From: Planctomyces sp. SH-PL62
GTDB lineage: Bacteria > Planctomycetota > Planctomycetia > Isosphaerales > Isosphaeraceae
Direction of reading: 5' to 3'
NCBI RefSeq assembly: GCF_001610895.1
Contig: NZ_CP011273.1
Span: forward strand, 2,604,001 to 2,668,000
DNA: 64,000 bases
Both the position numbers and the translations under genes were made by a program. Below, piece by piece: positions 32,470 through 43,625 of this stretch (position 1 is its first letter; every line of letters starts with the position of its first letter). The notes beneath the pieces are model-generated. The model was not told the DNA's origin and made no database searches. It worked only from the letters and a program-made list of their open reading frames with translations.

Positions 32470-33579
32470 ATGGCCGACGAACGCCTCCGGCGGCAGATCG
32501 CCTTCCTCGCCGCCCAGTTGATGTACAATCGGACCGAATCCGAATACTTCACCGCCAAGCGCAAGGCCGCCAAGCAGCTCGGGGTCGAATACCGATTCCG
32601 GCCCGGCGACCTCCCTTCCAACGCCGAGATCCGCGACCAGATCCAGGCCATGGCCCGGATGCACGAGGGCCCCAAGCGGCTCGACGACCTCCGCGCCATG
32701 CGGCTGGAGGCCCTCCGCATGATGCGCAAGCTCGCGCGGTTCCGGCCCCGGCTGATCGGCAGCGTCTGGACGGGCCACGTCCGCCAGGGCTCCGACATCG
32801 ACCTGCACCTCTTCTGCGACTCCCAGGCCCTGGTCACCGACGTCCTGGACGAGCACGGCCTGGCCTATGAGGTCCAGCACAAGCGGATCGTCAAGTACGG
32901 CGAGGAACGGACCTTCACCCACGTCCACATCGACGACCGCCACCCGTTCGAGCTGACCCTCTACCCCGAGGACAAGGCCCACTACGTCTTCAAAAGCTCC
33001 ATCACCGGCAAGGCCATCGAGCGCGCCTCGATCGCCGAGCTGGAGGCGTTTCTGAAGGCCGAGGAACCGGAGATCGACCTGGACTTCGAGGTCGAACGCG
33101 TCGAGGACCACGTCGACCGCTTCGAGATCTACCGCCTGCTGCTCCGCCCGCTCGAAGCGGTGAAACAGGACCCCAGGTATCATCCCGAGGGGGACGCCCT
33201 CTACCACAGCCTCCAGGTGTTCGAGCTGGCCCGCGACGAACGCGTCTACGACGAGGAATTCCTCCTCGCCGCCCTCCTGCACGACGTCGGCAAGGCCATC
33301 GACCCGTCCGACCACGTCGGCGCGGGGCTCCAGGCGCTCGAAGGGACGATCACCCCACGCACCGAGACGCTGATCGCCCTGCACATGGACGCCCTGGCCT
33401 ACCGCCGCGGCATCCTCGGCGCCCGCGCCCGAGCCCGCCTGGAACAGTCCGAGGAATTCGACGACCTGATGCTCCTCCGCGAACTCGACACCCGCGGCCG
33501 ACAGCCCGGCGCCATCGTCTGCGAGCTGGAAGAAGCCCTGGATTTCCTCCGCGACCTCGCCGAGCAAAACGAGGAATGA
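32470..33579 (+). CDS. Nucleotidyltransferase-HD phosphohydrolase fusion
   Basis: 369 residues from the ATG at 32470. RPRLIGSVWTGHVRQGSDIDLHLF (read in two parts around GHVRQG) is the GSx(n)SDIDL motif of polymerase-beta-type nucleotidyltransferases, with Asp109 and Asp111. A C-terminal HD domain includes ALYHSLQVFELA, AALLHDVGKAIDPSDH (His271, Asp272) and a later LIALHMDALAYR. The combination could make and break a nucleotide or RNA modification, or it may be a distant tRNA-processing enzyme. It is monocistronic. Downstream, 33580-34226 holds the palindromic repeat and the MITE and no gene. Confidence 0.75.
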   Translation: MADERLRRQIAFLAAQLMYNRTESEYFTAKRKAAKQLGVEYRFRPGDLPSNAEIRDQIQAMARMHEGPKRLDDLRAMRLEALRMMRKLARFRPRLIGSVWTGHVRQGSDIDLHLFCDSQALVTDVLDEHGLAYEVQHKRIVKYGEERTFTHVHIDDRHPFELTLYPEDKAHYVFKSSITGKAIERASIAELEAFLKAEEPEIDLDFEVERVEDHVDRFEIYRLLLRPLEAVKQDPRYHPEGDALYHSLQVFELARDERVYDEEFLLAALLHDVGKAIDPSDHVGAGLQALEGTITPRTETLIALHMDALAYRRGILGARARARLEQSEEFDDLMLLRELDTRGRQPGAIVCELEEALDFLRDLAEQNEE

Positions 33580-33603
33580 CGGGAATCCGGGCCCGCACCA
33601 TCA

Positions 33604-33757
33604 AGCCCTTCCCCCCTCGCGGGGGAAGGTGGCCCGAAGGGCCGGATGAGGGGGAAGACCAGCACAAGGACCGTCGGCCTTTCAAGCGGCCGGATCGCGA
33701 ATCCCGACGGCTTTCCGGCTCGTCCTCCCCGTCATAACGTCCTTCCCCCCTCGCGGG
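33604..33757. repeat. dispersed palindromic repeat, copy 3
   Basis: CCTTCCCCCCTCGCGGGGGAAGG at about 33606-33629 is followed by GTGGCCCGAAGGGCCGGATGAGG and later by another CCTTCCCCCCTCGCGGG at 33741-33757, the left half of a palindrome that a MITE has split. The other half resumes at 34000. It belongs to the same family as 966-1112 and 43440-43625. Confidence 0.7.
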
Positions 33758-33999
33758 CTTACAAGGGGAGGTATTTTCGCAACTACTGGTTTTGAGAGAG
33801 GTTGCTGATCGTGATTTCGGGGCTTCGGATCGACGCGTGAGTTCACCGTTCGTGGAGAACCCCGTGATTTACGGGGCCAGATCACGGCGGCGTTCTGGCA
33901 CATGATTAATCGACTTCCGTAACGGCCGCGATTCCGTGCGATTTGTCCACGCAACCTGTTTCAGCCCAGAATCTTGCAGAATACCTCCCCCTACAAGCC
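33758..33999. mobile_element. 242-bp MITE with imperfect terminal inverted repeats and 11-bp target duplication
   Basis: The left end reads CTTACAAGGGGAGGTATT and the right end, on the other strand, reads CTTGTAGGGGGAGGTATT; the similarity continues to GCAA and later AGGTTGC about 40 bases in. The element is flanked by CCCCTCGCGGG at 33747-33757 and again at 34000-34010. Removing it and one copy of that 11-mer restores CCTTCCCCCCTCGCGGGGGAAG, the palindrome found intact at 33606. It contains no credible coding sequence, so it is non-autonomous. The 11-bp duplication suggests mobilisation by an IS4-like transposase, which is inference. Confidence 0.8.
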
Positions 34000-34226
34000 C
34001 CTCGCGGGGGAAGACCGTGATCGAGCACGTACGCCGTCGGCGTCTTCGGTGCGTCGGCGATGGGTCCACCACGCCCGCCCGGCGGGCCTCATGATCGCGG
34101 CGGCTTCGGTCTACGCGGGAAGGGCCGACGGCGACGGTCGCGCCACCCCTTGCCTCCGGCGGGTCTGCACGCTAGACTCTTGTTGAACAAATTTCCTACA
34201 TCAGTCACCGCGCGGAGCGAACGGAT

Positions 34227-35576
34227 ATGCTGACACTCTGGGGCCCGGGCGGCGGTGGCGGACGGTATTGCGACGGAGTCTCTCGGCGTTCGTTCATCCG
34301 GGTGGGCGGCCTGGCGATGGGGGGGCTGTCGCTCCCCGGCCTGCTGCAAGCCCAGGCGCGGGGGGATTCGGCCGGGGCGCGGGACAATCACAAGTCGGTC
34401 ATCATGATCTACCTGACGGGCGGGCTGGCCCATCAGGACACGGTCGACCCCAAGCCCGACGCCCCCGAAGGGGTCCGCGGCGAGTTCAAGCCGATCGCCA
34501 CCAGCGTCCCGGGCGTCTTCCTCAGCGAGCTGATGCCCCGGACGGCCGCGTGCATGGACAAGGTCGCGATCATCCGGTCGCTGGTCGGCCAGGTCGACGA
34601 GCACTCCAGCTTCCAGAGCATGACCGGCTTCACGATGGGGACGTCCCAGCGCGAGGGGAGGCCGCACTTCGGCTCGGTCGCCTCGCATATCCAAGGGCCG
34701 GTGGACCCGGTGGTGCCGCCCTTCGTCGACCTCGCCCCGGTGATGCAGCACCGCCCGTACAACACGCCGGGCGCGGGGATGCTCGGGCAGTCGTTCAAGG
34801 GGGCGAGGATGGAAGGGGACGACCTGGCCCTGCTCAGGCCCCCGGCCGACGTCGCCCCGGAGCGGTTCGCGGGCCGTCGCGACCTCCTGGGCCAGTTCGA
34901 CGGCTTCCGCCGCTCGGTCGACGGCGCGGCGGTCGACGGCATGGGCTCCTGCTACAAGCAGGCGTTCGACGTGCTGACCTCCGACGCGCTGGCGAAGGCC
35001 CTGGACGTCGAGCGCGAGGCCCCCGAGCTTCGCGCCCGCTACGGGATGGGCTCGGCCAAGCACCTGGGCGACGGCGGCCCGATGTGGAACGACCAGTTCC
35101 TCGTCGCCCGACGGCTCGTCGAGGCCGGCTCGCGCTGCGTCACGCTCTCGTACGGCTTCTGGGACACCCACGGCAACAACTTCGGCCACCTCCGCAACGT
35201 CATGCCGCTGTTCGACCAGGGGGTCTCGGCCCTGGTGGAAGACCTCCACCAGCGCGGCCTGGACCGCGACTGCACGCTGGTCGTCTGGGGCGAGTTCGGC
35301 CGCACGCCGAAGATCAACAAGGACGCCGGCCGCGACCACTGGGCCCCGGTCAACTCGGCGATCCTCGCCGGCGGCGGCATGAAGGTCGGCCAGGTCATCG
35401 GCTCCACCGACAAGATCGGCGGCTACGCGACCAGCCGCCCCATCCACTACCGAGACGTCCTGTCCACCGTCTACCACAACCTCGGCATCGACTCCCGCTC
35501 CTACATCTACGACAAGGCCGGCCGCCCCAACACCATCCTCCCCGCCGAGCACGAGCCGATCGCCGAGCTGATCTGA
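34227..35576 (+). CDS. DUF1501 family protein with Tat leader
   Basis: 449 residues. CDGVSRRSFIRVGGLAMGG is a twin-arginine leader typical of planctomycete DUF1501 proteins. The domain follows: KSVIMIYLTGGLAHQDTVDP, GVFLSELMPRTAACMDKVAI, DEHSSFQSMTGF and LVVWGEFGRTPKINKDAGRD with HWAPVNSAILAGGGM, the conserved segments shared with alkaline-phosphatase-like and sulfatase-like folds. It is exported and presumably metal-dependent, but the reaction is unknown. The usual DUF1549/DUF1553 cytochrome partner gene is not adjacent here. Confidence 0.92.
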   Translation: MLTLWGPGGGGGRYCDGVSRRSFIRVGGLAMGGLSLPGLLQAQARGDSAGARDNHKSVIMIYLTGGLAHQDTVDPKPDAPEGVRGEFKPIATSVPGVFLSELMPRTAACMDKVAIIRSLVGQVDEHSSFQSMTGFTMGTSQREGRPHFGSVASHIQGPVDPVVPPFVDLAPVMQHRPYNTPGAGMLGQSFKGARMEGDDLALLRPPADVAPERFAGRRDLLGQFDGFRRSVDGAAVDGMGSCYKQAFDVLTSDALAKALDVEREAPELRARYGMGSAKHLGDGGPMWNDQFLVARRLVEAGSRCVTLSYGFWDTHGNNFGHLRNVMPLFDQGVSALVEDLHQRGLDRDCTLVVWGEFGRTPKINKDAGRDHWAPVNSAILAGGGMKVGQVIGSTDKIGGYATSRPIHYRDVLSTVYHNLGIDSRSYIYDKAGRPNTILPAEHEPIAELI

Positions 35577-43439: not shown

Positions 43440-43625
43440 CAAGCCTTCCCCCCTGGTGGGGGAAGGCGGCCGAAGGCCGGATGCGGGGGACCATCATCGC
43501 GGACGGACCGAGGATGCGACGGCCCTCGCGCTGGTCTTCCCCCGCGAGCGGGGAAGGAAGGATGGCGAGACTCCGAGGGCTCTCGGGCCGCCTTCCCCCG
43601 CGAATGGGGGGAAGGCGGCGGGGGA
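43440..43625. repeat. dispersed palindromic repeat, copy 2 (three hairpins)
   Basis: Three palindromes with CTTCCCCC/GGGGGAAG arms at about 43447-43470, 43534-43558 and 43594-43620. The first and its right flank (GGCGGCCGAAGGCCGGATG, then ATCATCGCGGACGGACCGA) match copy 1 in the opposite orientation. Before it, 43087-43439 is non-coding and contains a 14-bp direct repeat CGAAGCCAATCCCG at 43303 and 43393. Confidence 0.75.

Follow-up and report, generated by a model that had tools for sequence, protein, structure and literature searches.

The DNA analyzed here, a 64,000-nucleotide stretch of Planctomyces sp. SH-PL62 (the window; G000:C1:2604001-2668000), belongs to a genome of 6,784,659 bp in five contigs, with a chromosome of 6,507,102 bp. 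At positions 33758–33997 of the plus strand, the window carries a 240-bp noncoding MITE, one of four copies in the genome. The element opens with the terminal inverted repeat CTTACAAGGGGAGGTATT (33758–33775, plus strand) and closes with CTTGTAGGGGGAGGTATT (33980–33997, minus strand), the two 18-bp ends agreeing at 15 positions. An 11-bp target duplication, CCCCTCGCGGG, flanks it on the left (33747–33757) and on the right (33998–34008), and outside the duplication lie the arms CTTCC (33742–33746) and GGAAG (34009–34013) of a split 21-bp palindrome. When the MITE and one 11-mer are taken out, the rejoined flanks read CTTCCCCCCTCGCGGGGGAAG, the same sequence as that of the intact palindrome at 33608–33628. 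The original prediction had described a MITE with terminal inverted repeats and an 11-bp duplication whose removal restores this palindrome; our analysis recovered each of these features and corrected the length, which had been given as 242 bp.

A Multicopy Noncoding Element in a Dispersed Palindrome

Bacterial MITEs are short and noncoding, have inverted termini in common with an autonomous insertion sequence (IS), and are flanked by target duplications. The element resembles them in all these respects and occurs in several copies: the four in the genome are 98 to 100% identical and each exactly 240 bp long, with an 11-bp duplication at three copies and a 12-bp one at the fourth (MITE 1230995). 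A sequence search of the other 44 genomes of the family returned no copy. The longest stop-free stretch in the six frames does not exceed 67 codons, in agreement with the predicted lack of coding sequence. The single strand of the element folds back upon itself (z = –4.2); reading it as a structured RNA was dropped, as a search of the region 33300–34400 against Rfam, up to E = 1, gave no match. With four copies of the 240-mer at 98 to 100% identity and 93 intact palindromes against none for a control pattern, the arrangement is not due to chance, and the element is confirmed as a real noncoding transposon inserted in a palindrome.

The original prediction regarded the locus as direct proof of insertion and proposed comparison with an empty site in a relative. 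The gene left of the MITE has one close ortholog in each of the five sister species (86 to 93% identity), but the DNA beyond the ortholog does not align by eye, and no orthologous empty allele was readable in any of them. In G031 (L081), a palindrome of the same family follows the ortholog and holds no element. The 93 intact palindromes served as the stand-in for the empty site, and the argument for insertion therefore depends on the multicopy comparison. That comparison supports insertion, and it also excludes the single-copy occurrence with conserved flanks that the prediction had named as the contrary outcome.

The Target Repeat

In the genome, 93 intact copies of the palindrome, CTTCCCCC-N5-GGGGGAAG, were counted and none of the reversed control pattern; being short and in high copy number, the palindrome fits the description of REP and BIME sequences. 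Within the window, it is found at 33608–33628, 43445–43465, and 968–988. It is part of a larger mosaic repeat, and a second small hairpin follows it in most of the stretches read. Among the matches listed, at least nine pairs of palindromes lie 146 to 152 bp apart in opposite orientation, a BIME-like pairing at about 147 bp. The palindrome is abundant in four of the five sister species (60 copies in G029, 250 in G030, 155 in G031, and 319 in G032, with controls at zero), and G028 has none. REPs have been reported in Planctomycetes and cited as IS targets (PMC3733652). Spread of the repeat by a RAYT was rejected, as the genome contained no match to the Y1 transposase (PF01797) in a search that was positive in 5 of 14 control genomes.

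A Resident IS4-Family Insertion Sequence

Searching with the MITE termini led to a 1,306-bp IS in five places of the genome (1286559, 2579259, 5736144, 5868344, and 5879446). The five copies differ at three positions in total, and in each of them a 395-amino acid transposase is encoded by a single open reading frame without stops or frameshift. The original prediction held that an autonomous partner must exist elsewhere and suggested looking for a transposase between the same terminal repeats as well as for further copies with 11-bp duplications; both are answered by the five full-length copies of the IS, whose ends are of the same kind and whose target is the same, and by the four MITE copies.

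The transposase matches the Pfam domain DDE_Tnp_1 (E = 1.9e-11) and scores 91 bits against the NCBIfam model NF033591 (transpos_IS4_2), below the curated cut-off of 152. Its catalytic residues are D111, D174, and E277, with 62 and 102 residues between them, and the Y(2)R(3)E(6)K signature is present as Y270, R273, E277, and K284. This agrees with the published definition of the IS4 family, which combines the catalytic spacing D(60–110)D(100–150)E with the YREK signature (PMC2266710). The duplication is also of the expected size of about 10 bp, or one helix turn, measuring 11 bp in three of the five copies, with the other two having no matching duplication. A sequence search for relatives of solved structure returned none up to E = 1. 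In an AlphaFold2 model with a mean pLDDT of 75, the transposase is predicted to have a Tn5-like (RNase H) fold, the best structural match being the Tn5 transposase (1muh_A; Foldseek E = 2.7e-9; VIA-align Z = 20.2, rmsd 4.8 over 331 residues). By spacing, signature, single reading frame, duplication, and predicted fold, we assign the IS to the IS4 (Tn5-like) family. It resembles the IS10 subgroup in having ends that start with CT, a length within 1,200 to 1,350 bp, DDE and YREK residues, and a single reading frame, but its duplication is 11 bp and not the 9 bp listed for IS10 (PMC2266710), and for this reason we give it no subgroup.

One Palindrome, One Phase

All nine copies, four of the MITE and five of the IS, lie in the palindrome CTTCCCCC-N5-GGGGGAAG and in the same phase, with the centre of the duplication coinciding with the dyad. 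The sites in use differ in their loop (CTCGC, CTGGC, or the complements of these). Clean duplications flank seven of the nine copies, 11 bp long in six and 12 bp in one. By hand arithmetic, the approximately 102 21-bp targets make up about 0.03% of the 6.78 Mb. The pattern is that of site-specific transposition, with a REP-like mosaic repeat as the target. This strict site specificity for the palindrome, the main point of the present analysis, was absent from the original prediction.

The two copies without matching duplication are both of the IS. The copy at 5868344–5869649 (L025) is flanked by halves of two different palindromes, and at 5879446–5880751 (L013) the 11 bases are present on one side only; the two are in inverted orientation, about 10 kb apart on the chromosome contig (G000:C1). 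A composite transposon of the two was rejected, as their outer flanks carry different palindromes, and so was a single inversion between them, which does not restore matching duplications when the flanks are paired by hand. We infer that the duplications were lost through recombination between copies, the explanation given for three irregular copies of ISRm22; it does not fully account for the one-sided case at 5879446.

The uniformity of the sites could have other causes. Were the target chosen by structure, with insertion at the tip of an extruded hairpin (cruciform), any strong hairpin should suffice. The dyad-centred duplication and the differing loops agree with such a choice, as does the 50% identical element of the genome G281, which sits on the dyad of a different palindrome. 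All nine copies are nevertheless in one palindrome sequence, despite the second hairpin adjacent in most stretches read, and the targets of four relatives lack symmetry, so that structure-guided choice seems unlikely. Alternatively, targeting could be loose and only the copies in a harmless repeat have survived selection. The repeats do seem intergenic where inspected, but a single base-pair phase in nine of nine copies is not something that selection would produce, and we consider loose targeting very improbable.

Strict recognition of the palindrome may have a further side to it, in that the terminal repeats could imitate the target arms, the junction re-forming a stem from target arm and element end (CTTCCCCC...GGGGGAGG). 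Stems were found at all four junctions tested, at –4.2 to –5.0 kcal/mol vs. –7.8 for the intact palindrome. As the match is a short G-run, the stems give only a hint. In the G281 element, GGGGTAGGTC is contained in the ends and GGGGGAGGTC in the target arm. We regard such mimicry as a speculative and rather improbable proposal. If it were true, occupied palindromes would stay hairpins, the element and the repeat would be coadapted, with the repeat serving as a renewable landing pad, and each IS lineage would tune its ends to the palindrome of the host.

The Mover of the MITE

The similarity between MITE and IS is confined to the termini, the best blastn piece being the 19 terminal bases. With only the termini in common, the MITE is not a simple internal deletion of the resident IS. 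The outer bases of the MITE (CTTACAAG and CTTGTAGG) also differ from the resident IS ends (CTTTCAGG), which deviate at bases 4–5 or 4–7.

The target palindrome is occupied in two sister species as well. G029 contains an IS remnant with DNA 86% identical over IS positions 784–1306, and in G030 an IS end is seen at the edge of a contig. Each borders on the same half of the palindrome, and palindrome targeting extends to these species, with one IS end in each. The remnant in G029 (L064; G029:C2, near 4990489–4991012) is joined to DNA that, by eye, looks like part of an IS110-type transposase gene. The end in G030 (G030:C55:16-33) is identical to the right end of the MITE over 18 bases.

From these data, the 1,306-bp IS is likely the autonomous partner of the MITE or a close sister of that partner, and the putative mover in trans is, with high probability, the IS4 (Tn5-like) DDE transposase of the resident IS or of a close sister IS. 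The transposase would bring the two ends together and move the element by cut-and-paste, excision being followed by insertion at an 11-bp stagger whose centre is the dyad. The dyad-centred insertion would follow from the strand-transfer complex reading the palindrome as a symmetric site, and the repeats would offer many docking sites where insertion probably harms little. The two copies without matching duplication speak against this reading, as do the mostly nonpalindromic targets of relatives outside the genus.

Given the identity of the MITE right end to the G030 end, it may in truth have been a sister IS that moved the MITE. Here the MITE would have been moved by an IS with G030-like ends (CTTGTAGG) that is now absent, leaving the resident IS as only a cousin and the MITE dormant in this genome. 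Besides the 18 identical bases, the G030 end runs on into IS-like sequence and abuts the palindrome, and the deviations of the resident IS ends, together with the different outer bases and the unrelated MITE interior, would count against the resident IS as the mover. Against this, the resident IS and the MITE agree in target, phase, and duplication length, the G030 element is incomplete in the assembly, with 33 bases at a contig edge, and the transposase search found no transposase in G030. A mover of this sister type is possible, if somewhat doubtful. The 240-bp unit could even be no transposon but an enlarged form of the mosaic palindromic repeat, spread by recombination between palindromes. 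The element does sit within a mosaic, multicopy repeat, but the clean duplications, the uniform 240-bp length of all four copies, and the ends in common with an element that encodes a transposase and occupies the same point of insertion make this origin scarcely credible.

Relatives of the Transposase

In the transposase search, 7 of the 45 genomes of the family gave matches, the own genome included, as did 12 of the 297 genomes of the class sample at E up to 1e-20; with the G281 protein as query, 6 of the 95 genomes of the G281 family matched at E up to 1e-30. Among plasmids, 31 records matched, and the best of them (10 of 31 matches listed) were from Methylomagnum (49%), Nostoc (43 to 45%), and Stanieria (41%). 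A protein scan of genome contigs confirmed no relative, and the sole match to an end-plus-GGG pattern, in Yoonia, was taken as chance, about four being expected by hand arithmetic.

Both ends could be defined for 10 relatives at 41 to 51% identity, and these ends follow the CTTWCAAG type, which has GTAGG as its core, or are similar. Seven of the 10 have duplications of 11 to 12 bp: 11 bp in six (two from Methylomagnum, two from Nostoc, Stanieria, and G287) and 12 bp in G281. The other three (G255, G228, and the third Methylomagnum copy) have none. Elements such as those of the Methylomagnum, Nostoc, and Stanieria plasmids (L120–L126) form a coherent group, in which a length of about 1.3 kb goes with ends of the CTTWCAAG type and 11-bp duplications and which spans planctomycetes, a methanotroph, and cyanobacteria. 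It may constitute a separate IS4 subgroup; only the own copy was scored on the NCBIfam IS4 model, where it falls below the cut-off.

We tested target symmetry on the seven duplication-bearing relatives and on G018 (33% identical, 10-bp duplication). Left aside were the IS copies 5868344 and 5879446, which lack a matching duplication; L104, L105, and L121, whose ends were found but which have no duplication; L110 and L112, both about 30% identical, the former with ends but no duplication and the latter with a duplication of 8 bp; L106 and L125, in which a search for ends was negative; L107 and L036, where no end was convincing, and L034, which has none; L109/L119; L118, whose second end falls outside the contig; and the single ends of the sister species in L064 and L065. 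The six copies of the own genome with an 11-bp duplication showed 9 to 10 complementary pairs out of 13, the share of flanking centres as good being 0.0000 to 0.0095. MITE 1230995 reached 7/13 in a forced 11-bp frame ("TSD diff"), its real duplication being 12 bp. The G281 target is a palindrome dyad (10/13) with no equal centre in the flanks. Symmetry is weak in the targets of Nostoc CENA543, Stanieria, and G018 (7/13, share 0.02 to 0.04) and absent from those of G287, both Methylomagnum elements, and Nostoc C057 (2 to 5/13). By eye, the G287 site lies within the arm of a long inverted repeat. The comparison indicates that the 11-bp duplication belongs to the lineage. For strict palindrome use, the evidence extends to this genus only, a scope we adopt because just one of the seven duplication-bearing relatives, the G281 element, is clearly on a palindrome; for this element, palindrome use is suggested.

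Discussion

Strict targeting of REPs by ISs is already established, and what is new here is a further case, in a planctomycete. The closest precedent is ISRm22 of Sinorhizobium meliloti, filed under IS4 and described in 2006 as inserting strictly in REPs (PMC1525189). Its nine copies all occupy one and the same point of a REP, the axis of palindromy, and perfect direct repeats flank six of them, the other three having been explained as hybrids that arose by recombination between copies. The direct repeats of ISRm22 are 6 bp long vs. 11 bp here, its REP has a different sequence, and the part of its description at hand mentions no target-sharing MITE (PMC1525189); the likeness rests on insertion behaviour, not on transposase sequence. 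Other REP-targeting ISs are ISPsy8, ISPa11, ISPpu9, ISPpu10, and ISRm19 (PMC1525189), and the reference list of the same paper adds IS1397, ISKpn1, and IS621. Strict insertion at a single point of a dispersed palindromic repeat is common to them and our elements, but several belong to the IS3 and IS110 families, with different enzymes and different REPs, and ISPsy8, ISPpu9, ISPpu10, and ISPa11 have duplications of two to three bases or none, unlike the 11 bp here (PMC1525189).

Among the papers listed in literature searches, judged by titles and the openings of abstracts, none describes an IS with this kind of targeting in a planctomycete or a MITE that has a target of this kind in common with an IS. 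Compared with bacterial MITEs generally, the target of the present one is unusually strict, and its interior is unrelated to the resident IS. The elements add a clear palindrome-targeting IS and a target-sharing MITE in a planctomycete. They also show that one branch of a transposase lineage can use a palindrome strictly when its relatives keep the 11-bp duplication and mostly have other targets, and the determinant of target choice would therefore be testable by domain swaps between relatives.
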